From NCBI GenBank assembly GCA_947564735.1, contig CANOEC010000015.1, positions 1 through 64,000 on the forward strand: DNA of 64,000 bases. The letters are read 5' to 3'. Of the stretch, positions 32,163-50,498 are shown in pieces. A program made the translations under genes and the position numbers. Numbering within the stretch: position 1 is the first letter of the stretch; every line of letters begins with the position of its first letter. Below the pieces are notes generated by a model. That model had not been told where the DNA came from. It did not search any database and saw only the letters and a list, made by a program, of their open reading frames with translations. The stretch comes from an uncultured Lachnospiraceae bacterium (GTDB lineage Bacteria > Bacillota > Clostridia > Lachnospirales > Lachnospiraceae).

Positions 32163-33945
32163 CGTCTACCCCTTTCTCCTGCAGAACTGCTTTTCCATCC
32201 ACTATTTCATATACTGCATCACAACTCTTAATGGTTGTAAGGCGATGTGCTACAATTATCAACGTCTTATGTCCTTGTAAAGATTCTATCGCATCCATTA
32301 CAGCCGACTCAGTCTCATTATCCAAGGCTGATGTTGCTTCATCCAATACAAGAATATCCGGATCATAGTACAGTGCCCTTGCGATTGCCACGCGCTGTCT
32401 CTGACCTCCTGAAAATTTCACACCCCGCTCTCCTACGATGGTGTCAAGTCCGTCCGGCAGGCTTTCAATAAACTCTTTAAGTTGCGCCTGCTCCAGCGCT
32501 TTCCAGATAACACTGTCATCAATCCCATCCCGCCCGATTCCGAATGCTACATTATTGCGAATCGTATCATCTGTCAGATATACGCTTTGCGGCACATACC
32601 CAATCGTCCGACTCCACAATACCGGTATTTCTTTAATATCTATCCCGTCCATACAGACAGCGCCTGTCATCGTAGGCAAAAGACCAAGAATCATATCAGC
32701 AAGCGTCGTCTTCCCCGCACCTGAAGCCCCAATAAACCCAACTGCCTGTCCTTTACAAATTTTCATACTTAAATCTTCAATGACATAATGTTCTGCACCG
32801 GGATATTTCCAGCTGACATGTTCCAGACTTATCTCCTTCTCAAATTTTCTATCCTTCTCTTTTCCGCTTTCGCCTGTCTGCCAGTTTATCTGTGCATCCT
32901 TTTGCGCTGACTCCTGTGCCTCGCATATATTTTTATATACATCGTTCATCGTCGCACGATAATAAACGATAATATTATAGTTATTCGTAATTTTTCCTAT
33001 AGACGGTAAGATACGAAATGCCGCCATGGCAAAAGCTGATGCCTGCGAGATAAATTCCGTTCCATTCTGCCCGGTCAGTGACTTAACACATAACATGGCG
33101 ATAAATGCAACAATGCAAATTCCCTCAATCAAATAAGCCGGACATTCCGCAGCAAAGTTCTTAATCGCGTTCGCCTTATTTTTCCCTGTTACAGCAATAT
33201 CATAATTTCTTGCAAAGTGTTGCTGTCTCCTCGTTACCAGCACATCCTTAATCCCATTAAACGCTTCATTAACAGCCTTTATGCATCGCTGATGATAGTC
33301 CAAGGAATTCTGCCCCTGTCTACGCATGCTCTTATGAAAAACCAGAATAATAATTAGTAATGCAAATCCCGCCGAACAAGCAAGCGTTATCGCCATTACA
33401 AAGTCCGTCACAAGCAGCACCATAATGATCATCAAGGTTGACATACATTCCATTATAATTGTAAATACGCTTGTCAAGGTCGAAGAAATACCCGTAATAT
33501 CATAAATAATACTCCGTAATAACACTGTAGTGTTCGTATTAATATGAAACGTATAATCTCTGCCAAGATATGAATTCATCAGCCGCATGGATGTTTCCTG
33601 ATCTACCTTACGGAAAAAGCGATTCTTATAATAGGATAAGAAAGACATGTATATATTCTTAAACAAATAAACTGCTATGGTGCCACCCGAAACCAACAAG
33701 ACAAGACCTGTCGCATTATCAATATGCAGCCACCTCCATAAATTCTGCATATCCGGGTCCTGTAGTAAGTCATTCGGCGAAAGAATAACCTGTACCATGG
33801 GCACAAGCGCTGCGACACCCAGCATTTCCAGAAAAGAGCCAATAAACATCATAATAAAAACAAGGATGCTGCCTCTTTTCTGCTCTTTTGTAAATATCTC
33901 ATAAAATTGTAAATATAATCCTTTGATTTGTTTTAAAACTCTCAT
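32152..33945 (-). CDS. PglK-like ABC flippase (permease-ATPase fusion)
   Basis: A 597-residue half-transporter. Residues 1-345 contain a six-helix ABC exporter membrane domain and residues 370-597 the ATPase with Walker A GASGAGKTT (406-414), signature FSGGQ (511-515) and Walker B ILVLDE (531-536). PglK-like proteins dimerise and flip lipid-linked oligosaccharides outwards using ATP. A charged, lysine- and glutamate-rich linker lies between the domains. The start overlaps the end of the LegB-like gene (ATGA), and the stop overlaps the next gene, so it is coupled to nonulosonate-type genes. It is a paralogue of the transporter at 57424 with the same architecture. Confidence 0.88.
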   Translation of the reverse strand: MRVLKQIKGLYLQFYEIFTKEQKRGSILVFIMMFIGSFLEMLGVAALVPMVQVILSPNDLLQDPDMQNLWRWLHIDNATGLVLLVSGGTIAVYLFKNIYMSFLSYYKNRFFRKVDQETSMRLMNSYLGRDYTFHINTNTTVLLRSIIYDITGISSTLTSVFTIIMECMSTLMIIMVLLVTDFVMAITLACSAGFALLIIILVFHKSMRRQGQNSLDYHQRCIKAVNEAFNGIKDVLVTRRQQHFARNYDIAVTGKNKANAIKNFAAECPAYLIEGICIVAFIAMLCVKSLTGQNGTEFISQASAFAMAAFRILPSIGKITNNYNIIVYYRATMNDVYKNICEAQESAQKDAQINWQTGESGKEKDRKFEKEISLEHVSWKYPGAEHYVIEDLSMKICKGQAVGFIGASGAGKTTLADMILGLLPTMTGAVCMDGIDIKEIPVLWSRTIGYVPQSVYLTDDTIRNNVAFGIGRDGIDDSVIWKALEQAQLKEFIESLPDGLDTIVGERGVKFSGGQRQRVAIARALYYDPDILVLDEATSALDNETESAVMDAIESLQGHKTLIIVAHRLTTIKSCDAVYEIVDGKAVLQEKGVDGDA

Positions 33946-34928
33946 ATGTTATAGCAATCCACCTTATAGCGATCCATGTTATTTCTAATCCATGCAATGG
34001 TCTCCGCAATTCCCTCTTCAAAAGAATACTGCATTTTCCAGTCTGTTAATTGCATAATTTTTGCATTATCCCCCAACAATCTATTCACTTCGCTTTTCTC
34101 CGGTCTTATTCTCTCTTCATCACATAGAATTTTCGCCTTTGGATTAATCTGGGCAATAATTTCTCTCGCCAAATCCCCAATAGAAATCTCGCGTTTTGTC
34201 GCAATATTAATCTCCTGCCCAATCGTATTTTCACTCTCGGCAATTGCAATAAATCCATTTGCTGTATCTTTTACATAATTAAAATCTCTTGTCGGCGTCA
34301 AAGACCCAAGTTTAATTTCTTCTTTTCCGGAGAGCAGCTGCGTGATGATTGTCGGAATCACAGCCCTTGCAGATTGTCTGGGTCCATATGTGTTAAATGG
34401 TCTTACAATCGTGACCGGAAGCCCAAAACTACGGTAGAAGCTCTCCGCAAGGCGGTCTGCGCCTATTTTTGTCGCCGAATAAGGCGACTGCCCCTGAAAG
34501 GGATGCTTCTCATCAATCGGAACATATTGCGCAGTCCCATATACCTCTGACGTAGATGTAATCAGAATCTTCTCTGTCTCCAAATCTCTTCCCGCTTGCA
34601 GGACATTTAGCGTCCCCTTGATATTTGTATCCACATAAGAGTCCGGCGAATGATAACTAAAAGGAATTGCAATCAACGCTGCAAGATGAAAGACTTCTTC
34701 TATCCCTTTCATCGCTGTACGCACCCCATTCGGATCCCTGATGTCACCGCTAAAAATCTCCACATGTTTCATGATATCTTCCGGCAACGTATCCAGCCAT
34801 CCCCATGTATTAAAAGAGTTATAATATGTGAATGCCCTGACTTCAAATCCTTTTTTTACAAGCTCTTCCGTCAGATGACTTCCAATAAATCCATCTGCCC
34901 CTGTAACCAAAACTTTCTTACTCATCAC
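33942..34928 (-). CDS. legB: NDP-GlcNAc 4,6-dehydratase, LegB-like
   Basis: A 328-residue extended short-chain dehydrogenase. The Rossmann motif GADGFIGSHL lies at residues 10-19, and the YYNSFNTWGWLDTLP segment that follows is a LegB signature. The catalytic TSTSEVYG and YSATKIGADRL (Y-x3-K) and the substrate motif NTYGPRQSARAVIP are present. LegB makes a 4-keto-6-deoxy intermediate from GDP-GlcNAc in the legionaminic-acid pathway. A PtmE-like CBS nucleotidyltransferase directly upstream could supply that GDP-sugar. It overlaps the following ABC flippase by 4 bases. LegC and LegH homologues are not next to it. Confidence 0.85.
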   Translation of the reverse strand: MMSKKVLVTGADGFIGSHLTEELVKKGFEVRAFTYYNSFNTWGWLDTLPEDIMKHVEIFSGDIRDPNGVRTAMKGIEEVFHLAALIAIPFSYHSPDSYVDTNIKGTLNVLQAGRDLETEKILITSTSEVYGTAQYVPIDEKHPFQGQSPYSATKIGADRLAESFYRSFGLPVTIVRPFNTYGPRQSARAVIPTIITQLLSGKEEIKLGSLTPTRDFNYVKDTANGFIAIAESENTIGQEINIATKREISIGDLAREIIAQINPKAKILCDEERIRPEKSEVNRLLGDNAKIMQLTDWKMQYSFEEGIAETIAWIRNNMDRYKVDCYNI

Positions 34929-34945
34929 TTTCTCCTGCTATCATT

Positions 34946-36001
34946 TTACAGATTTTCCAACCGCTTCTTCATCTCTTCCAATTCATCAAACTGTCCCATA
35001 TCCATCCATGCATCATCATGGATCAGATAACACCCTACTTTTTCTCCATTCGTAATACATTCTTCTATCACATCCGTAATATGGACAAATGTATTATGTG
35101 GAATTTGCTCCAGAAAGAAAGGCTCTATTACATAAAATCCCGTATTGACACGATACTCAAACTGTGGTTTTTCCTCTAATCCAAGCACACGGTGATTCTG
35201 ATCTGTCCGAACTGTTCCGTATGGTATTTCATATTTCTTTTCCGCACAAACCATGGTAATTATATTTCCGCTTTGCTTATGATAATCCAGAATCTCCGCA
35301 TAATCAGCATCAACCAGAATATCGCAGTTTGACATAAAAAAAGTACTTTTCATCTCACCAGCCAGCAATTTCAATCCGCCGCCTGTCCCCATGTATTCCA
35401 TTTCCTCAACAAAATGAATGCCTCTTTGCACTTCACTGTCTGCGTAATATGCCTTTATAAGATCCTTTTTATAATTTACAATCATACTTACCTGCCTGCA
35501 GTCATATTCCGCAAAGCGATCGATAATATGCTCTGTAATCGTTTTATCCCCCACCGGAATCAACGGTTTTGGTAAAATATCCGTATAGGGTTTCAATCGT
35601 GTTCCCTTTCCACCTGCCATAATAACAAGCGGGATATTTAGTCTGCGCTTCTCCTGCTTAACCTTATTATCCCCCTCGTCCTTCCAAAAACGGATTCGTA
35701 TAATCTCCCCGTCATCATTGACTATTGGAATCGCCGTGATATAGTACTGGAGCATCAGACTCCCAGCCTGCTCTTCCTGCTCCTCCTTAAGATAAACCGG
35801 CATCTTATGGGCAATAACAGAGACTGGATCTTCAAGGCTTCCCCCGCACAGGATATGCCGGCGAACATCTCCATCTGTCACGACAGCATACAATTTCTGC
35901 CCCTTGCATACAAAGACAATACCTCGCGCACCAGATTCTATCTGGCGCATGGTCTCAAAAACACTTATATTCTCTTCCACAATGTACTTCCGAATATCCA
36001 T
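34946..36001 (-). CDS. ptmE: CBS-domain sugar nucleotidyltransferase, PtmE-like
   Basis: A 351-residue protein with two CBS repeats in residues 1-115 and a sugar-1-phosphate nucleotidyltransferase domain in 122-351. The GGKGTRLKPYTDILPKPLIP signature, MSNCDILVDADY metal site and RVNTGFYVIEP are clear. PtmE of Campylobacter has this CBS-transferase architecture and activates glucosamine 1-phosphate with GTP in legionaminic-acid synthesis. Position 17 bases before the LegB-like gene supports that role. Mannose- or heptose-1-phosphate guanylyltransferase is an alternative. The CBS pair may respond to nucleotides. Confidence 0.75.
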   Translation of the reverse strand: MDIRKYIVEENISVFETMRQIESGARGIVFVCKGQKLYAVVTDGDVRRHILCGGSLEDPVSVIAHKMPVYLKEEQEEQAGSLMLQYYITAIPIVNDDGEIIRIRFWKDEGDNKVKQEKRRLNIPLVIMAGGKGTRLKPYTDILPKPLIPVGDKTITEHIIDRFAEYDCRQVSMIVNYKKDLIKAYYADSEVQRGIHFVEEMEYMGTGGGLKLLAGEMKSTFFMSNCDILVDADYAEILDYHKQSGNIITMVCAEKKYEIPYGTVRTDQNHRVLGLEEKPQFEYRVNTGFYVIEPFFLEQIPHNTFVHITDVIEECITNGEKVGCYLIHDDAWMDMGQFDELEEMKKRLENL

Positions 36002-36062: not shown

Positions 36063-37181
36063 TCAGATATTGCACAGCACGTCAATAATCCTTTCCTGAT
36101 CCTCTTCAGACAAATACGCCGAAAATGGTATCGAAAATGTTCTGTCAGCATAATTTATTGTATTCTCAAAGGTTTCATCTCCCTTGAAACAATTTCCAAA
36201 CACCTTCATGCCATGCATGGGATTTGGATAATATACGATTGTCGGTATTCCTTCCTGAAGCAGTATGTTACGTATTTCATCCCGCTGTTCACGCGTCTCT
36301 GCCAAAAGTGCATACTGTGCATATGCTGAGACAGCTTTTTCCATAACAAACGGCACCACAAATTTATCTTGTAACGCCTCATTATACTTTGCTGCAATCT
36401 TCTGACGCCTGTCAATTTCTTCGTCCAAAACTTTTAGCTTTGGCAGCATGACTGCTGCCTGTATGGTATCTAAACGTGCGTTCATCCCTATTCTGACATT
36501 ATCATATTTACTGCTCCCTTTGCCATGTACACGTAATGATTTAAGAAGCTGCATCATCTCTTCACTATTCGTAAAAACTGCTCCACCATCACCATAGCAT
36601 CCAAGCGGTTTTGATGGAAAAAATGAAGTTGCCGCAATATTCCCGAATGTCCCGCATTTTTTTCCTTTATAAGAGGCGCCCAGCCCTTGCGCTGCATCCT
36701 CAATAAGCAGCAACCCGTATTTCTCCGCCACTTTGCCCAATTCATCATAATCCGCCGGATTACCGATAAAATCAACTGCCACAACTGCCTTTGGCTTTAA
36801 TTTACCCTGTTTCAATACTGCCTGTATTTGTCTTTCCAGACTCTCAGGACTGATATTATAGGTACGTTCATCAATATCGCAGAACACCGGTTCCGCCCCA
36901 AGCATGAATCCCGGTTCTACAGACGCTACAAAAGTCATATCCGGACAGAACACAGCATCGCCTTCTCCGATATCATTTGCCATATAAATCAGCTGCAGAG
37001 CATCTGTGCCGCTTGAACACCCTACAGCATATTTGACTCCCAGATATTCAGCAAGCTTTCGCTCAAATTCATCCACCTGCCTACCCAAAATAAAATCAGC
37101 GTTTTCCAATACATTACGGATGTTCTCATCAATTTCACCCTGTAAGGCACGATACTGCGCCTTCAAATCAATAAATTCCAT
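36063..37181 (-). CDS. wbpE: UDP-3-keto-sugar aminotransferase, WbpE-like
   Basis: A 372-residue DegT/DnrJ/EryC1 aminotransferase. The MEFIDLKAQYRALQ start, FILGRQVDEFERKL, CSSGTDALQL cofactor-binding region, LIEDAAQGLGASY and the lysine in SFFPSKPLGCYGDGGA strongly resemble WbpE, which aminates C3 of UDP-3-keto-GlcNAcA. The ATG at 37181 is chosen because GGGGGAG precedes it and homologues start there; it overlaps the WbpD-like gene by 14 bases. With WbpD- and WbpB-like neighbours it forms the known three-gene route to 2,3-diacetamido-2,3-dideoxy-hexuronic acid. The UDP-GlcNAc dehydrogenase WbpA is not in the window. Confidence 0.85.
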   Translation of the reverse strand: MEFIDLKAQYRALQGEIDENIRNVLENADFILGRQVDEFERKLAEYLGVKYAVGCSSGTDALQLIYMANDIGEGDAVFCPDMTFVASVEPGFMLGAEPVFCDIDERTYNISPESLERQIQAVLKQGKLKPKAVVAVDFIGNPADYDELGKVAEKYGLLLIEDAAQGLGASYKGKKCGTFGNIAATSFFPSKPLGCYGDGGAVFTNSEEMMQLLKSLRVHGKGSSKYDNVRIGMNARLDTIQAAVMLPKLKVLDEEIDRRQKIAAKYNEALQDKFVVPFVMEKAVSAYAQYALLAETREQRDEIRNILLQEGIPTIVYYPNPMHGMKVFGNCFKGDETFENTINYADRTFSIPFSAYLSEEDQERIIDVLCNI

Positions 37182-37761
37182 CCTGTTCTCCCCCTTCAAG
37201 TTCTCCGTTGATGTTTTGCCTGTATTTTTTACCACATTCCAAACAATGCAATAACCCTGATTCTTCCTGTAATTTATTGCCACATGAGCACACATAACCT
37301 GCTACTCTTCCGGGATTGCCAATTACCAGCTGATATGCTCCTACATTATGTGTCACTACGGTACCGGCTCCTACCATGGCGTATCTGCCTATGACATTAC
37401 CACACAAAATCGTCGCATTTGCACCTATCGTCGCACCTTTTTTAATTATTGTTTTCTTAAATTCATGTTTCCTTTCAATGAAACTTCTAGGATTGATCAC
37501 ATTCGTAAATACGCAATTAGGACCAAGAAAAACATCATCCTCGCAAATAACTCCCCGGTAAAGTGCAACATTATTTTTAATTTTTACATGACTGCCTATT
37601 TGCACTCCGCTCTCAATAAATACATTCTGCCCGATATTGCAATTATCTCCGATAATCACATCTGCCATAATATTACAAAACTGCCATATTCTTGTCCCTC
37701 TGCCAATCTGTGCATCACTATCTATAATGCTCGTTGGATCTGCCCGATACGCCTCATTCAT
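37168..37761 (-). CDS. wbpD: UDP-3-amino-sugar N-acetyltransferase, WbpD-like
   Basis: A 197-residue left-handed beta-helix acetyltransferase made of hexapeptide repeats. NCNIGQNVFIESGVQIG, LYRGVICEDDVFLGP, VFTNVINPRSFIERK and KKGATIGANATILCG closely follow WbpD, which acetylates the 3-amino group of UDP-GlcNAc3NA with acetyl-CoA. The C-terminal 40 residues contain CSCG and CLECG, which look like a small zinc-binding tail. The start overlaps the preceding oxidoreductase gene by 8 bases. LegH-type enzymes usually have an N-terminal Rossmann domain, which is missing here, so the WbpD reading is better supported. Confidence 0.87.
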   Translation of the reverse strand: MNEAYRADPTSIIDSDAQIGRGTRIWQFCNIMADVIIGDNCNIGQNVFIESGVQIGSHVKIKNNVALYRGVICEDDVFLGPNCVFTNVINPRSFIERKHEFKKTIIKKGATIGANATILCGNVIGRYAMVGAGTVVTHNVGAYQLVIGNPGRVAGYVCSCGNKLQEESGLLHCLECGKKYRQNINGELEGGEQDGIY

Positions 37762-38842
37762 TTACATTCTCTCCAAACCTGCCTGCAAAATCCATGGTAC
37801 TGCACTCCTGCAATGGAAATTTTACTGTTTTCCCCGTATATGCTGCTTCATAAATTGCCAATACCATTTCAAGCGCCCGGCGTCCTGCCTCCGCATCTAC
37901 ATAAGGCCGCCTACCCTGTTCAATCGCTTCAATAACATCAGCATACAGTTTTGAATGACCAAATCCATAGATATTCGGCGGATTCTCATGGCACTCCTTT
38001 TTTACTACTTCCGGATCATCCAAATAATCTGAAAAGCGCCATTCCTCAATAATATTTACTGCCTCACCGCCTGCTTTTACAGTCCCCTTCTCACCAAAAA
38101 TATATAACGTTTCTTCAAGGTTTTTAGGATATATATTTGTTGTACCCTCCACAATACCATAGCTTCCGTTTTTAAATCTGATGAGCGCAAGTCCTAAATC
38201 TTCTGCTTCAATATAATCATGCTTTAACCGATCTGTAAAACCAATTACCTCCTCCACTTCATCTCCCATCATCCAGCGCAATAAATCAATATCATGAATG
38301 CACTGGTTCATCAGCGCTCCACCATCCTGCTCCCATGTGCCGCGCCATTTGGCACGGGCATAATACTCATAATCTCTTGCCCATCTGATATGTGCCGTCC
38401 CGTAATATAATCTTCCAAATCGCTGCATCTCAATTGCTTCACGAATTTTTTGAACAGATTTATTAAATCTGTTCTGATGGCATGCACACACCTTAACACC
38501 CTTTTCTTTCGCCTTTTTTATAATGGCATCTGCATCCCGTAACGACAAGGCAATCGGCTTCTCAATAATCAAGTTACATCCAGCCTCGATACAATCCAGC
38601 GCAATCTGCGCATGTTTTCCACTCTCTGTAGCAATTGCTACAAGCTCTGGTTTCACCTGTTCTAACATCTCATGATAATCAGTATATTGAAGCACGTCGT
38701 CTGTTAATCTATGTTTTAGTATCTTATCCTTCATATTTGCCGGCACAATATCGCAAATAGCCGCTATTTCAAGATGATTATTCTGCGCCGCAACAACATG
38801 ATTCGACGATATCCTGCCACAACCAATCAATGCATATTTCAT
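37754..38842 (-). CDS. wbpB: Gfo/Idh/MocA oxidoreductase, WbpB-like
   Basis: A 362-residue NAD-dependent oxidoreductase. The Rossmann start ALIGCGRISSNHV, the conserved EKPIALS motif near residue 95 and a C-terminal alpha/beta domain with GALMNQCIHDIDLLRWMMG (GG-x-x-x-x-x-x-H-x-x-D-like) are present. WbpB-type enzymes oxidise C3 of UDP-GlcNAcA to the 3-keto sugar used by WbpE. The order WbpB-WbpD-WbpE, with short overlaps, supports this. It overlaps the upstream GT by 4 bases. A second Gfo/Idh protein at 47555 is much more divergent and belongs to another pathway. Confidence 0.82.
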   Translation of the reverse strand: MKYALIGCGRISSNHVVAAQNNHLEIAAICDIVPANMKDKILKHRLTDDVLQYTDYHEMLEQVKPELVAIATESGKHAQIALDCIEAGCNLIIEKPIALSLRDADAIIKKAKEKGVKVCACHQNRFNKSVQKIREAIEMQRFGRLYYGTAHIRWARDYEYYARAKWRGTWEQDGGALMNQCIHDIDLLRWMMGDEVEEVIGFTDRLKHDYIEAEDLGLALIRFKNGSYGIVEGTTNIYPKNLEETLYIFGEKGTVKAGGEAVNIIEEWRFSDYLDDPEVVKKECHENPPNIYGFGHSKLYADVIEAIEQGRRPYVDAEAGRRALEMVLAIYEAAYTGKTVKFPLQECSTMDFAGRFGENVNE

Positions 38843-43343: not shown

Positions 43344-43430
43344 GTCCATACTCCCTATCCCCGGAAACATCCCTGCCTGTCATTGGTACTAATACTCCTT
43401 ATGATAATCCCCGGCGCATATATTCATAGA

Positions 43431-43459
43431 ATTATATCATACTCGTACCTTATTGTCTA
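43431..43459 (-). promoter_or_regulatory. Sigma-A type promoter upstream of the KpsC-like gene
   Basis: On the coding strand TAGACA (43459-43454), a 17-base spacer and TATAAT (43436-43431), with TG one base before the -10 box (extended -10). The -35 box overlaps the TAG stop of the neuC-like gene. The start site would fall near 43424, about 80 bases before the chosen start codon. Confidence 0.7.
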
Positions 43460-44650
43460 CTTTTCCACAATTCCGTCACACCAAACAGACTTTATATCGT
43501 AAAATTTTTTCTTTAATTCTATGTTTTTCTCAAGTGCAAATTCCCTAATTTTCGCTACAATGCGCTCAGATGCATGACCATCCCCATACGGGAGTTCCTG
43601 TTTTCTAATTTGCTCTCTAAACTCCTCACTATCAGCCGTACACATGGCTTCCTTAATAGCCTCGCAGTCTGGTTCGCAATTTAGGACACTACATGCCTGT
43701 ATTCTGCCTTTCTGCCTGTCACCTATATTTACTGTTGGAACATGCATGACCGGCGCCTCCAGAATACCACTGGAAGAGTTCCCTATGACCATGGAACAAT
43801 ATTTCATGGTTGACAGATAACGTACCATTCCAAGGGACTCCGTCAGATAAATTCCTCCATTAAATCCCTTTGCAAACCGTTCTAATCGTTCATTTACCAT
43901 GCGCCCGCCCGCATCTGCATTTGCCTTTGTTACTATATAGCGAAATTGTGGCATCTCCTCCATCGCCTGTAGAAGCTCGTCCAATTGTTGTAATGCCGTA
44001 TTTTCTTCCAATGTAACCGGATGAAAAGTCACCAGACAATACTTTCCATCCAGCGAAAAGTCCAAAGACGCCTCCAGCTCTTTCCTATCCCACAACTTCT
44101 GATGCAAAATATTGTCTACACCGGGCGCACCCACACAAAAAACTCTATCCGGATTTTCTCCTAACTGAATCACTCTTCTACGATAATCTTCCGTGCTTGT
44201 AAAATGAAGATAACTCATTTTTGTAATACAATGCCGGATAGCATCGTCAATCGCCCCTTCCGTAATCTCTCCCCCATGGATATGGGCAATCGGAATATGC
44301 GCATTCATTGCGGCAATGCACACTGCAAGCGTCTCATAACGATCTCCCAGAACAATCAGCATATCCTGAGGATTTTCTGCAAAAAAATGGGCAAACTTCC
44401 AGATTGCCGCCGCCATGGATTCTGACACAGCCACTACACCATCACCCTTTGCCAAAATGGGAATTTTCGCCTTGATGGGAATACCGTCTTCCTCTATCTC
44501 TTTGTATGTTTCACCAAATTCCTTTTCCAGATGCATTCCAGTGGCTATAACATTCGTAGAAAACTCCCTTTCCTGCAACAGTCCCTGTATCATATTTTTC
44601 AGCAGTCCATACTCTGCACGCGTAGCTGTCAGGACACAAATTTCCTTCAT
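43457..44650 (-). CDS. neuC: Hydrolysing UDP/GDP-sugar 2-epimerase, NeuC/LegG-like
   Basis: A 397-residue GT-B fold epimerase that converts an NDP-GlcNAc-type sugar to the free ManNAc-type sugar with loss of NDP. LTATRAEYGLLKNMI is the NeuC/LegG start; VLGDRYETLA, IAHIHGGEITEGAID (catalytic histidine and glutamate), VTFHPVTLEEN and IGNSSSGILEAPVM are all diagnostic. The ATG at 44650 is preferred to an upstream TTG. It is the last gene of the nonulosonate operon. Whether it uses UDP-GlcNAc, UDP-diNAcBac or a GDP-linked sugar cannot be read from motifs; the LegB and PtmE homologues make a GDP-sugar plausible. Confidence 0.9.
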   Translation of the reverse strand: MKEICVLTATRAEYGLLKNMIQGLLQEREFSTNVIATGMHLEKEFGETYKEIEEDGIPIKAKIPILAKGDGVVAVSESMAAAIWKFAHFFAENPQDMLIVLGDRYETLAVCIAAMNAHIPIAHIHGGEITEGAIDDAIRHCITKMSYLHFTSTEDYRRRVIQLGENPDRVFCVGAPGVDNILHQKLWDRKELEASLDFSLDGKYCLVTFHPVTLEENTALQQLDELLQAMEEMPQFRYIVTKANADAGGRMVNERLERFAKGFNGGIYLTESLGMVRYLSTMKYCSMVIGNSSSGILEAPVMHVPTVNIGDRQKGRIQACSVLNCEPDCEAIKEAMCTADSEEFREQIRKQELPYGDGHASERIVAKIREFALEKNIELKKKFYDIKSVWCDGIVEK

Positions 44651-44690
44651 GGCGAGATACCTTTCTGTCAATACATTTTGTTAATTCCTA

Positions 44691-45485
44691 TCAAAGATTC
44701 TGGCTTTCACAACAATAGAGCGCGTAGTATAAATCTTCCCGCCGATCATTTTTAACCGGAAAATGATTTCTAAATTCAGCGGTCTCATCTTGGAGGTCAT
44801 ATTCCATCAGTCCCTCCTGTCCGCTTAGTTCTTGCAAAATCTGTCCATTCGGATTTATAATACAGCTGTCTCCCGAATAGTTTACTCCCCCGATGTCCCC
44901 TGTACAATTGACCGCAATAATATACACCTGATTTTCAATCGCCCTCGCCTGCAGCAGACATCTCCAATGCGCTCTTCGCGCTTCGGGCCAGTTTGCAGGA
45001 ATCAACAGAACATCCGCTTTTTTTGAAGCAATCTGAAATATCTCGGGGAAACGCAAATCATAACAGATAAAACTGGAAAAACTAATTCCATCCATAGAAA
45101 AATACGCAATGTTCTTTCCACCTTGAAACTTTATGTCTTCCCCCACAAATGAAAATGGATGTATCTTTACATAATCCGAAAGCACTCTGCCGTCCTTATC
45201 TACAACAGTATAATGATTCTCCGCCTTTTCCCCGCAGTCCTTTACCCAGCCAAATCCAATCGCTGTATGATACTGCCCCGCATAAGACTGCATTTTATGG
45301 ATTGTTTCATAATCCTTTTCTCCGGTCACGCTTGTGTTCATGGAAAAACCGGTAAAGCTCATTTCTGGTAAAAGAAACAAATCCGCTTTACGTTCAGACG
45401 CCTCCTGCAATTTTCTTTCTACGCACTTATAATTTGCTTCCTTGTCTTCCCATATGATATTCATTTGGTATAAAAGCACCTTCAT
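44691..45485 (-). CDS. Carbon-nitrogen hydrolase, omega-amidase-like
   Basis: A 264-residue nitrilase-superfamily amidase. The catalytic triad is visible: E in LLPEMSFTGF, K in DYVKIHPFSF and C in FICYDLRFPE, and the downstream NWPEARRAHWRCLLQARAIEN segment is typical of the omega-amidase (Nit2/MtnU) branch. It starts directly at the end of neuA and ends 40 bases before neuC, so it is embedded in the nonulosonate operon. Omega-amidases hydrolyse 2-oxoglutaramate produced by glutamine-dependent transaminases. The class III aminotransferase two genes upstream could produce that compound. Direct deamidation of a sugar is an alternative. Confidence 0.8.
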   Translation of the reverse strand: MKVLLYQMNIIWEDKEANYKCVERKLQEASERKADLFLLPEMSFTGFSMNTSVTGEKDYETIHKMQSYAGQYHTAIGFGWVKDCGEKAENHYTVVDKDGRVLSDYVKIHPFSFVGEDIKFQGGKNIAYFSMDGISFSSFICYDLRFPEIFQIASKKADVLLIPANWPEARRAHWRCLLQARAIENQVYIIAVNCTGDIGGVNYSGDSCIINPNGQILQELSGQEGLMEYDLQDETAEFRNHFPVKNDRREDLYYALYCCESQNL

Positions 45486-46214
45486 TTATTCATCCTGCTC
45501 CCATAAACTTAAATCTATCAACGCATTTTCCGCCATGATGCACGCAACCTTATAATTATACATAGAATCTATCTCAATAGACTTTTCATCCGGCATAATA
45601 TAAGGTACAGAATTTTGAGCATGAAAAGACTTATGTTTCACAAAATAACTCCATTTCGCAATGTACATACATCCATTCATTGTATATTCTTTCGCCTGAT
45701 CCTGCCTTCTGACGCTTTTAAAATCCTTCATCGCCTCATAGAACTTTGAAAGACCCCCCTTGGAATCCAGTGAATGTATAAACGCCCGATTTACTTCCAC
45801 TTCTTTCATTCCAAGTAATGTATCTGCCCCTCGCTCTTCTATTAGTTTCAGTGCATTGTCCAAATCTTCTGAACTTGCAAATGGTGAGGATGGCTCCAAA
45901 AGACATATATAGTCATACCTATCTTCATCATGTTCCATAATCCATTGTACCGTATGCCAGACAACATCCATGCTGTCCGCCGTATCCGATGCCAGATAAT
46001 CCGGACGCATAAATGGAACCTCCGCCCCGTATGCAGCGCTGACTGCAGCAATCTCCTCATCATCTGTTGACACAATAATCCTTTTATCAACGCTGCATTT
46101 CTGCGCCGAAATAATCTTATATGCTATGAGCGGCAGTTTCCCAACTAATCTGATATTTTTCCGGGGCACCCCTTTTGAGCCGCCTCTTGCAGTAATAACA
46201 AATAATACTCTCAT
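45486..46214 (-). CDS. neuA: CMP-nonulosonate cytidylyltransferase, NeuA-like
   Basis: A 242-residue cytidylyltransferase activating a nonulosonic acid with CTP. The signature ITARGGSKGVPRKNIRLVGKLPL at the N-terminus is the CTP-binding loop; IIVSTDDEEIA, CLLEPSSPFASSEDLDNAL and the MNGCMYIAKW region complete the NeuA/LegF/PseF pattern. Single domain, normal length for the short NeuA class. It follows the class III aminotransferase by 9 bases. The exact nonulosonate (sialic, legionaminic, pseudaminic or a new derivative) cannot be assigned by motif alone. Confidence 0.92.
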   Translation of the reverse strand: MRVLFVITARGGSKGVPRKNIRLVGKLPLIAYKIISAQKCSVDKRIIVSTDDEEIAAVSAAYGAEVPFMRPDYLASDTADSMDVVWHTVQWIMEHDEDRYDYICLLEPSSPFASSEDLDNALKLIEERGADTLLGMKEVEVNRAFIHSLDSKGGLSKFYEAMKDFKSVRRQDQAKEYTMNGCMYIAKWSYFVKHKSFHAQNSVPYIMPDEKSIEIDSMYNYKVACIMAENALIDLSLWEQDE

Positions 46215-46223
46215 ACCTGCCCT

Positions 46224-47525
46224 CTAATTATACTTTCTGAACACCGGTTTAATCACATTGCCCATAATAAACTGATTTACATCGCCATTTAAAGCATCGC
46301 TATATATTTTCATTGCCTTTCTGGCTGCATCCAGCGTTAAATCAATTTCCTTTTGAGTATGTTCATATGCAACTGATATATATGGCATGAGTATTCCCTG
46401 TCTGACCATTTCCTGACAAAACACCGTCCGATGTTCAAATGATGCGTTGCCATCCTTGCCGCAGATTACCATATTGGGGGAACAAGCTGCACCTTGCATG
46501 TAGAAATAATCCTGCAGCGAAAACTCCTTCGCAATTTCGTTGAATCCTTCCACAAGCTGCGTTCCCATTTCCCAAATATGTTTTGTCACATTTAATTCCT
46601 TATATACATCTATTGTTTCAATAAATGCACCCAGACCACTCATCTCGGCGCCATGTGTTGTAGATACGAGAAAAACCCGCTCCTTACCCGGCGTCAGTCC
46701 CCCCATATCCATAATTTCACGTTTACCTCCCAGCGCTGCAACAGAAAAACCATTTGCCATACCTTTGCCAAAAGTAACTAAATCCGGCTCTACCCCATAA
46801 TATTTGCATGCTCCCTGCAAATCCCAGCGAAATCCGGTTATCATTTCATCAAGAATATACACAACGCCATATTCCGTACATAATTTTCTTACCTCCTGCA
46901 GAAAATTATCAACCGGTTCCTCCGTATCACAAGGCTCCATAATCAGTGCGGCAATTTCACCTTTGTACTTTTCAAACAAGTTCTTTACAGAATGAATATC
47001 ATTAAAACTAAACTGCAATGTTAAATCCTGAATTTCCTGTGGTATACCTGCATTCATAACTGTGTCTCCAATAAACCAGTCATCATAAGAGAAAAAGGAA
47101 TGCTCTTTACAGCGCGCCACATACTTTCTGCCCGTATAGGCTCTCGCCAATTTTACCGCCGCTGAAGTCACTGTGGAACCATTTTTGGCGAATTTTACCA
47201 TATCAACCCACGGGAACAAATTACACATCAATTCTGCTGCATCAACTTCAATCTTCGATGCTTTGCTTGCCGTATTGCCATTATGTATCTGCCTGATTGC
47301 TGCATCTGAAATCCTGTCATAGTCATATCCGATCGTAACCGACCTGCATGCCATTGCATAATCAATATATTGATTACCGTCCACATCCCACGTATAAACA
47401 CCCTTGCTGCGCTCCATAACTCTGGGTGCATTTTCGGGGAATACCTCATCCGTTCTACTATACGTGTGCGCTCCCGCCGGAATGAATGCATGTGCTTTTT
47501 GTCCGTATTGTTCATTCTTTGTCAT
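46224..47525 (-). CDS. Class III aminotransferase (glutamate-1-semialdehyde mutase-like)
   Basis: A 433-residue PLP enzyme of the class III fold, similar to glutamate-1-semialdehyde 2,1-aminomutase but placed in a sugar operon. FAKNGSTVTSAAVKLAR binds the cofactor phosphate, ILDEMITGFRWD holds the PLP aspartate, and the Schiff-base lysine lies in TFGKGMANGFS (about residue 254). The start at 47525 is chosen because AAGGAG precedes it with good spacing; the longer reading lacks a ribosome site. Between the Gfo/Idh oxidoreductase and neuA, it probably aminates a keto-sugar. Tetrapyrrole synthesis is unlikely as no hem genes are near. Confidence 0.85.
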   Translation of the reverse strand: MTKNEQYGQKAHAFIPAGAHTYSRTDEVFPENAPRVMERSKGVYTWDVDGNQYIDYAMACRSVTIGYDYDRISDAAIRQIHNGNTASKASKIEVDAAELMCNLFPWVDMVKFAKNGSTVTSAAVKLARAYTGRKYVARCKEHSFFSYDDWFIGDTVMNAGIPQEIQDLTLQFSFNDIHSVKNLFEKYKGEIAALIMEPCDTEEPVDNFLQEVRKLCTEYGVVYILDEMITGFRWDLQGACKYYGVEPDLVTFGKGMANGFSVAALGGKREIMDMGGLTPGKERVFLVSTTHGAEMSGLGAFIETIDVYKELNVTKHIWEMGTQLVEGFNEIAKEFSLQDYFYMQGAACSPNMVICGKDGNASFEHRTVFCQEMVRQGILMPYISVAYEHTQKEIDLTLDAARKAMKIYSDALNGDVNQFIMGNVIKPVFRKYN

Positions 47526-47554
47526 GTCTTTCTGCTCCTTCTTTAATTTCATTT

Positions 47555-48520
47555 TTACTTTTCAATCTCATCAATAATTCTCAGAATCTCTTTATCTTTC
47601 TCAAAATCATATAACGGTTTCCTGCCGCCAATCACATCAAAAAAACCTTCTATTTCTTTTGCATAGGCGTATTCATTAATAAAGTCTCCATATTTCTCTT
47701 CATGCAGGTACTGTCCAGCCTGTATTTTTTTTAGTTCATTGGAAATAAGATTCTTTTCATATAGTGTATCCGGCGTTCCATTCCATTTCATGTACAAATC
47801 CTCATTAAAAACTTCCAGCCGGCGGACAGCCTGTCTGCTTACCACGTCAACCACCAGACTTCCTATATTTCCATTTGCATGTTCGATCTGAATGAGATAG
47901 GTATCTGGAAAGTCTATACGCAGACTTGTGATTTTTCTTTTTATTACATGTACCTGCTCTATCTTCCCAAACGTATTCTGTATCCACGGTAATTCAATCG
48001 CCAGAAGTTCTCTGCATCCGTTTGTAAGTTTACTGCTGATAAAAAAATCATTTAGGTTGTCCCACGGATGCCAGTCAGGCAAGTATTGTCCTACATGATA
48101 CTGGTAAATACATTTTGTCCCGCTCTGCTTTACCTTTTGATCAATTATCTGAATTTCAGCTCTATATAACGGTGTAGATGAAAGAAAGAGAACTTTGCCA
48201 CGTTCCCCGGCTGCTTTCATATTCTCGTCATAAAAATCGCTAATCAAATTAATCTCCGTGAAAACATGCATATCACGCTCAAGACACTCTTTTATGATTC
48301 CGGCATGGAATTGCGGAGAGGTGCAGACAAATGCACAGTCCTGTTTCTCCTCCATATCGTTTAACGAGGAATAAACTTTTATATGATACTTGTCAGCAAC
48401 GTCTTTTGCTCTTTCCAAGTTACTTTCAACACCCGTAATAAGCATATCTGCATAATAATCCCGCAGCAGTCTTATTCTTCTTTTTCCCATAGAGCCAAGC
48501 CCTATAACACAAATATTCAT
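47555..48520 (-). CDS. Gfo/Idh/MocA oxidoreductase in nonulosonate operon
   Basis: A 321-residue NAD(P)-dependent oxidoreductase. The Rossmann motif VIGLGSMGKRRIRLL is at residues 4-18. The usual EKP motif is replaced by TEINLISD near residue 88, and the C-terminal half has a GCRELLAIELPWIQ segment where the family normally places its catalytic histidine. These changes mark a divergent branch. Its position before the class III aminotransferase suggests that it oxidises a hydroxyl to a ketone for transamination. A reductive role is the alternative. It is 39 bases after the synthase gene. Confidence 0.72.
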   Translation of the reverse strand: MNICVIGLGSMGKRRIRLLRDYYADMLITGVESNLERAKDVADKYHIKVYSSLNDMEEKQDCAFVCTSPQFHAGIIKECLERDMHVFTEINLISDFYDENMKAAGERGKVLFLSSTPLYRAEIQIIDQKVKQSGTKCIYQYHVGQYLPDWHPWDNLNDFFISSKLTNGCRELLAIELPWIQNTFGKIEQVHVIKRKITSLRIDFPDTYLIQIEHANGNIGSLVVDVVSRQAVRRLEVFNEDLYMKWNGTPDTLYEKNLISNELKKIQAGQYLHEEKYGDFINEYAYAKEIEGFFDVIGGRKPLYDFEKDKEILRIIDEIEK

Positions 48521-48559
48521 AACATAACCTCTTCACTTCTCCAAACCAAAATAATCATC

Positions 48560-49561
48560 TTATATCCGTATAATCCGTTCATCTTTTTGATAGTCTCTAT
48601 CCGCTGCTGTTCCAATCACCTCGTTCCATCGCATAGGGGAAACCCCGTCTCCCGGTCTCTTGGTGGTCAGATTGTCTTCCGTAAATAGCTCACCTATGCG
48701 GATACTTTCCTTCGCCACAATACTTTTACGTGCCACATCCCGATTTTTCATTTCCGAAGGCGTTGGCTGTTTAATATCACTTCCCAATGCAATGGATATG
48801 TTACGGACTGCACTCACCATCATCTTCAGTTCTGCCGGTTCCAGACTTGCCTTGTGATCCGGTCCTTCCATATTCCGATTCAGCGTAAAATGCTTCTCAA
48901 TGACAACAGCCCCTAATGCCACTGCTGCTATCGGCACTTCAATCCCTGTCGTATGATCCGAATATCCGACCGGCACACCCAATTCCTTTTGTATCTGCAT
49001 CATTGCCCGTAAATTCACGTCACAATAAGGTGTGGGATACTCCGTATTACAATGAAGCACTGTGATATCTTTGCAGCCATTATCCCGTAATATTGTTACA
49101 GCATCACGAACCTCATTAAGATAACTCATTCCTGAAGAAAGGATGACCCTTTTTCCTGTTTTCCCTACCTTTTCCAAATACGGATAGTTGGTAATTTCAC
49201 CAGAAGGTATCTTTATCAGCTCAATCCCGCATTCTACAAGATAATTCAGGCTTTCTATGTCAAACGGCGTTGACAGAAACATTATCTTCTTAGATTTGCA
49301 ATATTCGATTAGCTGTTGATGCATATCGTAAGTAAGCTCCAGCCTCTTCAACATCTCAAACTGAGACTCTTCTTTTGCTGTCGTTTTCATCTGATATTCT
49401 GCTTTTCCTGCATCCTTACATACAAGGTTTTCCGCACGGAAGGTTTGAAATTTTACTGCATCAGCGCCTGCCAATACTGCTGCATCTACTAATTTCTTCG
49501 CTATTTCTATATCACCATTATGATTCACGCCCGCTTCGGCAATGACAAACACTTCACTCAT
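48560..49561 (-). CDS. neuB: Nonulosonic acid synthase, NeuB-like
   Basis: A 333-residue synthase that condenses phosphoenolpyruvate with a ManNAc-type aldose. The N-terminal TIM barrel shows FVIAEAGVNHNGD, GADAVKFQTF, LSTPFD, IPSGEITNYP, VILSSGM and GYSDHT. The C-terminal SAF domain begins at RKSIVAKESIRIG and includes TKRPGDGVSPM. These are diagnostic for NeuB/LegI/PseI. It overlaps the preceding formyltransferase by 8 bases. Distinguishing sialic- from legionaminic-acid synthase requires alignment; the locus context (LegB, PtmE) favours a legionaminic-like product. Confidence 0.93.
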   Translation of the reverse strand: MSEVFVIAEAGVNHNGDIEIAKKLVDAAVLAGADAVKFQTFRAENLVCKDAGKAEYQMKTTAKEESQFEMLKRLELTYDMHQQLIEYCKSKKIMFLSTPFDIESLNYLVECGIELIKIPSGEITNYPYLEKVGKTGKRVILSSGMSYLNEVRDAVTILRDNGCKDITVLHCNTEYPTPYCDVNLRAMMQIQKELGVPVGYSDHTTGIEVPIAAVALGAVVIEKHFTLNRNMEGPDHKASLEPAELKMMVSAVRNISIALGSDIKQPTPSEMKNRDVARKSIVAKESIRIGELFTEDNLTTKRPGDGVSPMRWNEVIGTAADRDYQKDERIIRI

Positions 49562-50447
49562 GATTTTCCAGTCTATCCCCTATTTTTACTTTACCATTAT
49601 AAGTATACTCCGTAATCTCCAATATTGTATCCCCTGTTTTTATCAACAGTCCCTCTTTCGTCCTGCCAACCACCTGACCTACCGTATTCTTATATGCACG
49701 TGCCCCGGGAACCATCCTTGCCTTGTTTATCATTATCTTGTTCCCTCTAATCCATGATGTTGCCTGCGGACCCGGTATACAGAGCGCCCGGACAAAGTTA
49801 AAAATTTCTCTGCTCGTCTGTGTCCAATCAATGATTTCATCACCTTGAACCCGCATACCGCAATACATGCCTACCGGATCAATATCGTTTTGCTTCATCG
49901 GGATTACATTTTCCTTTTGAATCAATTTAATAGCCCGATAAAGAATCTCAGCGCACGCTTCATAAGCCGTTTGTAACAATGTACCATAATCATCATCATC
50001 CGTAATAGGGTATGTCTCCTGCAAAATAATATCCCCGGTGTCAATTCCCTCATCCATATAGTGCACCGTTATTCCAAATTCTTTCTCATCATTAATCAGC
50101 GCCCAATTCAATATATTTCTTCCTCTGTAAAATGGAAGTTTGCCGGCATGACAATTAATCGTCTTGTATTTTGGAAGGTTTATCATTTCATTTTTGAAAA
50201 TCTGGTTGAATGACATGGAAACAAATAAATCAGCTTCATACTTTTCTATTCTGCTCATAAACTCGCTTGAATTAATTTTCTCGCTCAACTCGACGGGTAT
50301 CTGGTTTTCTTCTGCTAACTTTATTAAAGTTTCATCCTTTTTATCATATCTTACGGTTACAAATACAATCTCTAAAGAATCGTCAGAAATAATCTTCTTA
50401 AATGCATTATGTCCCCATGGTCCATCAGCAAAATATCCTATTTTCAT
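49554..50447 (-). CDS. Sugar N-formyltransferase-like protein
   Basis: A 297-residue formyltransferase-fold protein related to methionyl-tRNA and sugar N-formyltransferases (ArnA N-terminal, WlaRD, VioF class), which transfer a formyl group from N10-formyl-tetrahydrofolate to an amine. The catalytic triad is visible as N and H in TINCHAGKLPFYRGR and D in VHYMDEGIDTGDII. A C-terminal domain after residue 205 resembles the OB-like Fmt tail. The ATG at 50447 is chosen because AAAGGG precedes it and the longer reading starts at GTG. It is the first gene after the promoter at 50499-50527 and overlaps neuB by 8 bases. Confidence 0.85.
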   Translation of the reverse strand: MKIGYFADGPWGHNAFKKIISDDSLEIVFVTVRYDKKDETLIKLAEENQIPVELSEKINSSEFMSRIEKYEADLFVSMSFNQIFKNEMINLPKYKTINCHAGKLPFYRGRNILNWALINDEKEFGITVHYMDEGIDTGDIILQETYPITDDDDYGTLLQTAYEACAEILYRAIKLIQKENVIPMKQNDIDPVGMYCGMRVQGDEIIDWTQTSREIFNFVRALCIPGPQATSWIRGNKIMINKARMVPGARAYKNTVGQVVGRTKEGLLIKTGDTILEITEYTYNGKVKIGDRLENHE

Positions 50448-50498
50448 GCAACACACCCTTTCTCATCTGCACGCTTTTTCCTTACATTATCTAGTCAT

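Follow-up and report, generated by a model that had tools for sequence, protein, structure and literature searches.

Gene content of the locus

The analysed window (64,000 nucleotides of a contig from an uncultured Lachnospiraceae bacterium) contains a tight run of seven genes on its minus strand, as do all features located below. All seven reading frames are open at the coordinates originally predicted, and searches against Pfam and NCBIfam profiles upheld the family identity of each. The run starts with an Fmt/ArnA-like two-domain formyltransferase (FT, 49554..50456, with an ATG at 50447; PF00551 and PF02911) and a NeuB/LegI-type nonulosonate synthase (48560..49561; TIGR03569, 509 bits against a cut-off of 400, with a SAF domain), which overlap by 8 nt. 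After 39 nt follows a Gfo/Idh-type protein designated GfoA (47555..48520), assigned by PF01408 and its tree clade, and 2 nt further a class III PLP aminotransferase designated AT3 (46224..47552; Aminotran_3, NF004856). A CMP-nonulosonate synthetase of the AT3-associated type (NeuA, 45486..46214; PF02348, CTP_transf_3) lies 9 nt beyond AT3 and abuts, with a gap of 0 nt, a nitrilase-superfamily, omega-amidase-like protein (Nit, 44691..45485; PF00795, CN_hydrolase). The last gene, separated by 19 nt, encodes a NeuC/LegG-type hydrolysing 2-epimerase (43457..44671; TIGR03568, 463 bits against a cut-off of 236), for which a TTG start is listed and an ATG is found at about 44650. The joint presence of NeuB/LegI, NeuC/LegG and a CMP-synthetase is as expected of a legionaminic acid locus.

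A promoter dedicated to the run was not established. A sigma-70-like match (10/12) lies upstream at 50527-50499, and a better one (11/12) lies at the neuC end (43459-43431), but such matches occur near chance level in the region (58 against 49.0 ± 6.3 in shuffles). The run itself is sound, whereas its borders had been drawn too narrowly, since a LegB-type 4,6-dehydratase (33942..34928; TIGR04180, 524 bits against a cut-off of 475) and a PtmE-type protein combining CBS and nucleotidyltransferase domains (34946..36001; PF00483 plus CBS) are located at 33942-36001. Next to these is a WbpE-like DegT aminotransferase (36063..37295; best PDB entry 4qgr, WbpE being 3nyu), which scores 217 bits on the LegC model with its cut-off of 420. 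It is probably not LegC but part of a 3-amino-sugar trio with the LbH protein at 37168-37761 and a second, canonical Gfo/Idh protein (Gfo2, 37754..38842), whose closest solved entry is 3q2k (E 8e-76), which we take to be WlbA. The assignment of these three genes to the legionaminic pathway was set aside because of their WlbA- and WbpE-like matches, and Gfo2 probably belongs to a different sugar pathway. No protein above the LegC model cut-off is encoded within the 64-kb window; a LegC-like DegT gene is located on another contig (C13:67545-68762, 377 bits).

Several proteins of the run are poorly captured by named families. NeuA matches PseF best, with a score of 160, below the cut-off of 206. 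FT scores below every listed NCBIfam cut-off, and further Formyl_trans_N genes are located on contigs C4, C12 and C13 of the genome. Nit is closest to PRK10438, at 152.5 bits, below the cut-off of 249 and thus outside the omega-amidase family as modelled; its E-K-C residues, presumably the catalytic triad, align with those of PDB 3p8k. GfoA contains the NAD-binding Rossmann domain (56 bits on PF01408, threshold 24), but the match is confined to the N-domain and the C-terminal part is unmatched. In Gfo/Idh/MocA dehydrogenases the lysine of the EKP motif is a catalytic residue. In GfoA it is replaced by E-I/L-N in 18 of 18 proteins from AT3 loci and 7 of 7 from AT3-less loci, while GfoC, the Gfo/Idh protein of sister loci described below, retains it in 13 of 13. 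Because of this loss GfoA can be called only a putative dehydrogenase. It carries the invariant segment HVGQYLPDWHPW, and its AlphaFold model has a pLDDT of 91.6.

The AT3 family and its genomic partners

AT3 scores 607 bits on NF004856/PRK06209 (cut-off 486) and is a member of this family; its NCBI name, glutamate-1-semialdehyde 2,1-aminomutase (GSAM), is probably a misnomer. K263, HTYSR (29-33) and FFSYDDWFI (153-161) are invariant across 80 aligned proteins. A fold search with its AlphaFold model (pLDDT 81.8) returned GSAM and FumI as closest, then also PctV and GenB3/4. AT3 defines a family whose nonulosonate loci span at least 11 phyla; in 73 of 80 loci a CMP-synthetase gene is no more than six genes away. 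The original prediction of a nonulosonate locus with an additional, non-DegT aminotransferase is supported. The idea that sugars are unusual substrates of class III enzymes is right as far as LegC and PseC are concerned, but GenB3 and GenB4 (PDB 7lm0/7lld), which act at aminoglycoside C-6', belong to this class. Relatives at about 44-50% identity are present in rhizobial sugar loci that are not nonulosonate loci, which counts against the scheme proposed below. One further match, at 40%, was on a phage-labelled scaffold. When one Vibrio AT3 gene was compared with E. coli O-antigen loci of known structure in a distant blastn mode, no match was obtained.

Co-occurrence of the seven families was above chance in the 80 AT3 loci, where tblastn detected NeuB in 64, NeuA in 64, NeuC in 58, Gfo in 55 and Nit in 37, though the formyltransferase in only 15. 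A class III gene is listed in a table of a Legionella paper (PMC3694923, as far as its text was available); our literature search on this gene set found nothing beyond it.

The oxidoreductase accompanying AT3 varies. GfoA was called in 18 of the 80 loci and an SDR type, SDRa, in 46, and the two are mutually exclusive. Six loci, some of them short contigs, lack a called GfoA, GfoB or SDRa, although one of them (L026) has GfoA by tblastn. The two SDRa representatives scanned belong to PF13561; no gene of this community is present in the window. An obligate pairing of GfoA with AT3 is ruled out, since 7 of the 9 genomes with GfoA (among 392) carry it in AT3-less loci.

The most informative comparison is with related clusters. 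A syntenic cluster in a congeneric genome (G178) encodes proteins identical to those of the window at 89% (LegB), 89% (Gfo2), 70% (PtmE), 69% (NeuB), 65% (NeuC) and 53% (GfoA), yet GfoC and a different CMP-synthetase, NeuA', replace AT3-NeuA-Nit, and an LbH protein (LbH8) replaces FT. Similarly, four Arcobacteraceae loci have closely related clusters with a second Gfo/Idh gene and the other CMP-synthetase type in the place of AT3 and its own CMP-synthetase. SDRa proteins 75-100% identical are encoded in 10 of 104 Arcobacteraceae genomes; AT3 lies beside SDRa in 4 of the 10 and the other 6 have GfoC-NeuA'. An EpaA-like aldo/keto reductase was considered for the sister-locus gene in the AT3 slot and rejected, as Pfam assigned Gfo/Idh in 7 of 7. 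The NeuA type tracks AT3 versus GfoC: the two labels require 2 changes on the NeuA tree, against a mean of 10.5 after shuffling. Since AT3 and the CMP-synthetase are replaced together in related clusters, AT3-NeuA seems to be a tailoring cassette that can be exchanged. That an oxidoreductase stands in for AT3 while the rest of the locus is related fits amination of a ketone.

Of the 80 AT3 loci, 36 have Nit no more than six genes from AT3, whereas none of 44 AT3-less NeuC places has it as a neighbour. It is absent beside AT3 in 3 of the 4 Arcobacteraceae AT3-SDRa loci, which counts against the proposed scheme; in G428 it sits between AT3 and SDRa. Nit is therefore optional; its family fits a helper of omega-amidase type that would act where glutamine is the donor.

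Proposed route and alternatives

We propose that the window carries a variant legionaminic-type nonulosonate locus in which a ketone would be formed at C8 and aminated by AT3 to an 8-amino-nonulosonate, a reading to which we give an even chance. Starting from a 4-keto precursor of the LegB type, NeuC and NeuB would build a nonulosonate of the 5,7-diamino type, with FT, in the LegH slot, formylating the precursor amine destined to be N-7. Tailoring would then act on the finished nine-carbon sugar, ahead of CMP activation: the oxidoreductase (GfoA in the window, an SDR in most other phyla) would introduce the ketone, C8 being the likeliest position; rather than being re-reduced, this ketone would be transaminated by AT3. 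In sister loci, GfoC in the place of AT3 probably re-reduces the ketone, possibly to the 8-epimer. Activation would fall to the NeuA of the matching type. Should glutamine serve as amino donor, Nit may hydrolyse the by-product alpha-ketoglutaramate and thereby pull the reaction. Against this route stand the lost EKP lysine of GfoA, the more frequent occurrence of GfoA without AT3, the lack of a clear LegC in the window and the six AT3 loci in which no GfoA, GfoB or SDRa was called. More tentatively, and with less than even confidence, AT3 may represent a pan-phylum class of nonulosonate aminotransferases which, with its CMP-synthetase, sets re-reduction versus amination of a shared 8-keto-nonulosonate and, with a glutamine-transaminase/omega-amidase couple, leads to 5,7,8-triamino nonulosonates, here N-formylated. 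To our knowledge, no such couple is known from any sugar pathway.

The original prediction also had FT cap the same amine that GfoA and AT3 make, which we consider unlikely. All three genes share one run, and other possible amine-modifying enzymes are encoded within six genes of AT3 elsewhere (a methyltransferase in 13 of 80 loci, a GNAT in 6). However, the window's FT clade tracks NeuB rather than AT3, directly adjoining it in 7 of 7 cases. The NeuB-adjoining place otherwise holds a LegH/NeuD-type acetyltransferase (31 of 68 NeuB places), the two never touch the same NeuB, and the AT3-less sister cluster has its LbH acetyltransferase there. In the window no LegH lies beside NeuB, FT occupying that place, and LbH proteins are encoded elsewhere, at 37168 and 59241. 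Since FT sits in the LegH slot, the C7 nitrogen is the more likely formylation target than the amine introduced by AT3. Ketone amination fits as predicted. Capping by FT is not supported, nor is the supposed novelty of formamido nonulosonates: 5-N-formyl-legionaminic acid has been described (PMC6137143), and 7-formamido-pseudaminic acid is named in a title within the reference list of PMC3210612, in the parts of both sources available.

A second alternative, which we judge unlikely, places AT3 and the oxidoreductases earlier in the pathway, their substrate being a hexose or hexosamine of the GDP-GlcNAc segment and not the nine-carbon sugar. PtmE-type proteins are encoded in 63 of 80 AT3 loci, and one rhizobial AT3 relative lies near a glucose-1-phosphate cytidylyltransferase gene. 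The gene order ptmE-ptmF-ptmB-ptmA of C. jejuni presumably matches the GfoC-NeuA'-SDRa loci, and we take its product to be plain legionaminic acid, which argues against chemistry at C8. In P. shigelloides, PtmA has been assigned to this early GDP-GlcNAc segment and not to C8 chemistry (PMC4481668, in the part available). Against early action, the CMP-synthetase type switches with AT3/GfoC, a Gfo/Idh-CTP_transf fusion is present in one locus (L076), and EpaA is a cytidylyltransferase-reductase fusion in C8 epimerisation (PMC12053666). The PF13561-family SDRs EpaB, acting with EpaA (NMR; PMC12053666), and AciE (PMC5595891) are both reported to function in C8 epimerisation of nonulosonates.

It is quite improbable that AT3 replaces LegC and supplies the usual amine at C4, which corresponds to C7 of the nonulosonate, with no extra amine. 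Although the window lacks a LegC above the model cut-off, a LegC-like DegT gene is present on contig C13, 42 of 80 AT3 loci combine a DegT aminotransferase gene with one of dehydratase type (LegB or c11 community), and the DegT genes of four AT3-less loci (L137, L139, L140, L141) are 81-89% identical to that of an AT3 locus (L088). Finally, it is highly improbable that AT3 is a true GSAM of haem synthesis: GSAM is its best sequence and fold neighbour, but at only 23-28% identity in fold alignments, with a loop, presumably the gating loop of GSAM, nine residues shorter in both alignments shown, 211 bits on HemL (TIGR00713) against a cut-off of 527, and sugar contexts at all AT3 loci mapped.

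Relation to known systems

If the 8-amino reading is correct, the recurring annotation of AT3 as a haem enzyme would be corrected and the presence of an additional amine on surface sugars could be read from sequence. The natural swap of AT3-NeuA and GfoC-NeuA' offers a handle on the role of ptm-type oxidoreductases. An 8-amino-3,5,7,8,9-pentadeoxynonulosonate occurs in the O-polysaccharide of Flexibacter (now Tenacibaculum) maritimus, and 8-amino-Kdo also appears in the same source, whose available text names no genes for 8-amino nonulosonates (PMC3210612). The conserved AT3 family provides candidate genes, in many phyla, for these chemically known sugars. In the available text of the T. maritimum genome paper, the terms aminotransferase, pseudaminic, O-antigen and lipopolysaccharide were not found (PMC5561996).

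Like the window, the leg/ptm loci of P. shigelloides, V. fischeri and Campylobacter contain LegB-, NeuB-, NeuC-, NeuA- and PtmE-type genes, with oxidoreductase genes adjoining the CMP-synthetase gene; their table, as available, is without the AT3, Nit and FT that the window has (PMC4481668, Table 5). Unlike them, the window is without a clear LegC and an SDRa-community gene. Acinetobacter EpaA/EpaB and AciE resemble the proposed route in C8 chemistry and in having tailoring enzymes, among them a reductase linked to a cytidylyltransferase or found close to one, but give a hydroxyl epimer as end product and involve no aminotransferase in the text available (PMC12053666, PMC5595891). In Halorubrum PV6, Leg genes, a predicted formyltransferase and a nearby NeuD are linked to 5-N-formyl-legionaminic acid; the formyl group is at N-5, whereas that predicted here is at N-7, and no class III aminotransferase appears in the available part of the report (PMC6137143). 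GSAM and GenB3/GenB4 share the class III PLP fold with AT3 but differ from it in their low identity, loop and context. Shewanella KdnB and KdnA oxidise an ulosonic acid at C8 and then transaminate it in the synthesis of 8-amino-Kdo. The route proposed here would follow the same order of C8 oxidation and transamination, but the 8-amino-Kdo transaminase (PDB 5k8b) matches the DegT protein of the window, whereas AT3 is a class III enzyme and its predicted substrate a nine-carbon sugar.

The seven-gene run and its surroundings

All seven ORFs at 43457..50447 are real and lie on the - strand with gaps of -8 to 39 nt. Family scans confirmed a two-domain formyltransferase (FT), NeuB, a Gfo/Idh oxidoreductase (GfoA), a class III aminotransferase (AT3), a cytidylyltransferase (NeuA), a nitrilase-superfamily protein (Nit) and NeuC. 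The tight run of the original prediction was borne out. It may also have its own promoter, the region having 58 promoter-like matches vs 49.0 ± 6.3 in shuffled sequences.

The run is part of a long polysaccharide cluster in which most genes point the same way and which includes LegB-type and PtmE-type genes (33942-36001; LegB model 524 bits, cut-off 475), a DegT aminotransferase of WbpE-type likeness (36063), a Gfo/Idh gene of WlbA-type likeness (37754) and an LbH gene between these two. Judged by sequence, the last three look like a WlbA/WbpE-type 3-amino-sugar trio and, since the DegT gene belongs to this resemblance, no clear LegC was found within the 64-kb window. Contig C13 of the same genome carries a gene resembling LegC (377 bits, cut-off 420), and the genome has two more NeuB genes besides that of the run. 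Further nonulosonate loci were observed at C13:31092-46907 (PseB/PseC with NeuA and NeuB homologues) and on contig C24 at 32794-35784 (a second NeuC-NeuB-NeuA set). The window also encodes a 491-aa protein (41895-43370) with no Pfam or NCBIfam match and no match in the searched stretch of the sister cluster of the congeneric species G178.

AT3 and its exchange for a Gfo/Idh-NeuA pair

The AT3 locus represents a genuine and conserved variant of legionaminic-type loci, with a probable tailoring role. Among 84,980 species genomes, 193 stretches encode AT3 relatives; the best 80 were used here. The expected co-occurrence of the seven families held in these best 80 of 193 loci by tblastn for NeuB and NeuA (64 each), NeuC (58) and Gfo (55), less so for Nit (37), and for FT in only 15. 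An ORF-based count over 80 rows (the window and 79 loci; L090, whose AT3 escaped the ORF caller, and L005, judged by its length to be the same contig as L040, were left out) placed a CMP-synthetase at most six genes from AT3 in 73 rows, PtmE in 54, NeuB in 52, NeuC in 51, the Gfo/Idh clade GfoB and the SDR oxidoreductase SDRa in 46 each, Nit in 36 and GfoA in 18 (19 with L026, whose GfoA was missed by the ORF caller and found by tblastn). The rows span 11 named phyla (5/80 without phylum). GfoA and SDRa never occurred together (0/80), in rows that are phylogenetically non-independent, GfoA being mostly from Bacillota and SDRa nearly all from other phyla; neither was called in 16/80, some on short contigs.

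K263 and the HTYSR and FFSYDDWFI blocks of AT3 are invariant in 80/80 rows. Its predicted model (pLDDT 81.8, weak at 154-166) matched the folds of GSAM and FumI most closely, with PctV and GenB3/4 further down, and AT3 scored 211 bits on the HemL model (cut-off 527). Relatives of ~44-50% identity on Agrobacterium pusense pAt1 and S. fredii pNGR234b lie in loci without nonulosonate genes, the former near glucose-1-phosphate cytidylyltransferase, rfbC, PIG-L and NAD(P) oxidoreductase genes. A tandem pair of further Gfo/Idh genes (communities c21/c27) recurs in nonulosonate loci (e.g. L093:12220-13218, L068:13174-14112; L130:6111-8044).

Among 392 genomes of the window's order, AT3 (E<=1e-100) was found in 2, GfoA (E<=1e-15) in 9 and NeuC (E<=1e-60) in 44 at 46 places. 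The nine GfoA genomes are that of the window, G278 with the other AT3 locus (L045, where the match, 31% identical, is actually a GfoB-clade gene) and seven without AT3. All seven carry a further Gfo/Idh gene, GfoC (PF01408 in 7/7), at most two genes from GfoA, and a different NeuA type (NeuA') adjoins in 6/7. The G178 cluster shows synteny with the window (LegB 89%, Gfo2 89%, DegT 77%, LbH 71%, PtmE 70%, NeuB 69%, NeuC 65%, GfoA 53% identity), lacks AT3, NeuA, Nit and FT, and has GfoC, NeuA' and an LbH acetyltransferase. The GfoA tree implies at least three switches of partner between AT3 and GfoC, two of them forced by well-supported branches.

SDRa (E<=1e-50) was detected in 10 of 104 Arcobacteraceae genomes; AT3 adjoins it in four, with Nit between them in G428, and GfoC-NeuA' in the remaining six. 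A fifth AT3 (49%) occurs in G461, which has no SDRa match. Pfam assigned CTP_transf_3 in 6/6 GfoC-NeuA' loci and Gfo/Idh in both GfoC scanned (n=2). Four of these loci (L137, L139, L140, L141) share with AT3 loci the backbone c11 (dehydratase-type)-DegT-LbH8-NeuB-NeuC-PtmE at 61-93% identity; the backbone of L138 is different, and L142 has none within the stretch.

A NeuA tree of 69 rows (58 AT3 and 11 GfoC labels; the CTP13 set and near-copy L128 left out) required two label changes vs a shuffled mean of 10.5, and 0/500 shuffles were as low. L084 has pairs of both kinds; in an earlier tree its second NeuA stood beside the GfoC clade, and so did those of L062 and L076. Given the swapped loci and the NeuA and GfoA trees, AT3 and GfoC appear to be alternatives for the second step on a common intermediate, with the CMP-synthetase fitting the outcome.

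Nit is tied to AT3, being present in 36/80 AT3 rows vs 0/44 AT3-less NeuC places (E<=1e-50 within 20 kb), and is dispensable, occurring in 1/4 Arcobacteraceae AT3-SDRa loci. Glutamine transaminase and omega-amidase can act as a couple, which the tie would fit.

Formylation

FT had been proposed to cap the AT3 amine, giving a formamido nonulosonate that might be undescribed. The analysis supported neither claim. The window's clade, FT1 (7 rows; SH-aLRT support of 99 in a quickly built tree), adjoins NeuB in 7/7, the place otherwise of the LegH/NeuD-type acetyltransferase LbH8. At 68 NeuB places, LbH8 touched 31, FT1 7, neither 30 and both 0; in FT1 loci LbH8 is absent from 4/7, one gene further on in L028 and L046, and ~9 kb off in the window. 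Since FT1 always touches NeuB and never shares it with LbH8, FT probably substitutes for LegH, giving a 7-formamido group. As for novelty, 7-formamido-Pse appears in the title of a work cited by PMC3210612, and 5-N-formyl-Leg is known from the available text of PMC6137143.

Another FT clade is found directly beside PIG-L-type deacetylase genes in the nonulosonate loci L033, L055, L057, L067, L085, L098 and L103; one representative of these deacetylases was scanned, and its PIG-L match fell just short of the Pfam cut-off. This arrangement is suggestive of a putative deacetylation followed by formylation.

Proposed chemistry and known systems

Tailoring by AT3 is mechanistically plausible. A ketone would be a substrate open to both reductase and transaminase, and a Leg-type sugar has free hydroxyls at C4 and C8. 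By analogy, C8 is favoured as the putative ketone/amine site on two grounds: SDRs from the Pfam family of SDRa take part in C8 epimerisation, and an 8-amino-pentadeoxynonulosonate is known. In the portions of the papers available, the epimerisation was shown by NMR for EpaA/EpaB (PMC12053666) and by gene-structure correlation for AciE (PMC5595891), and the amino sugar is given in PMC3210612. Catalytic motifs are kept in SDRa (YxxxK, 47/48) and GfoC (EKP, 13/13), and GfoB has EAS at the EKP position in 44/46. GfoA as a real oxidant is the weakest link of the window's own pathway, because it has E-I/L-N where GfoC keeps EKP (25/25; 18 with and 7 without AT3); its predicted model is a confident fold in silico (pLDDT 91.6). 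A less likely alternative is that AT3 and the oxidoreductases act before the nine-carbon sugar stage, in line with the scheme in the accessible part of PMC4481668, which places PtmA early.

We found no functional account of the AT3 gene set in the literature searched, most subscription papers being outside reach. For L. pneumophila serogroup 6, a table entry in the available part of PMC3694923 lists a class III gene whose neighbours are pseG and a cytidylyltransferase. The Leptospira interrogans locus has a second aminotransferase, given no role in the accessible text of PMC3438082, that is possibly an AT3. In Helicobacter marmotae (L076:2479-4644), a 721-aa protein fuses a Gfo/Idh oxidoreductase with a CMP-synthetase domain, and thereby resembles EpaA, a cytidylyltransferase-reductase fusion.
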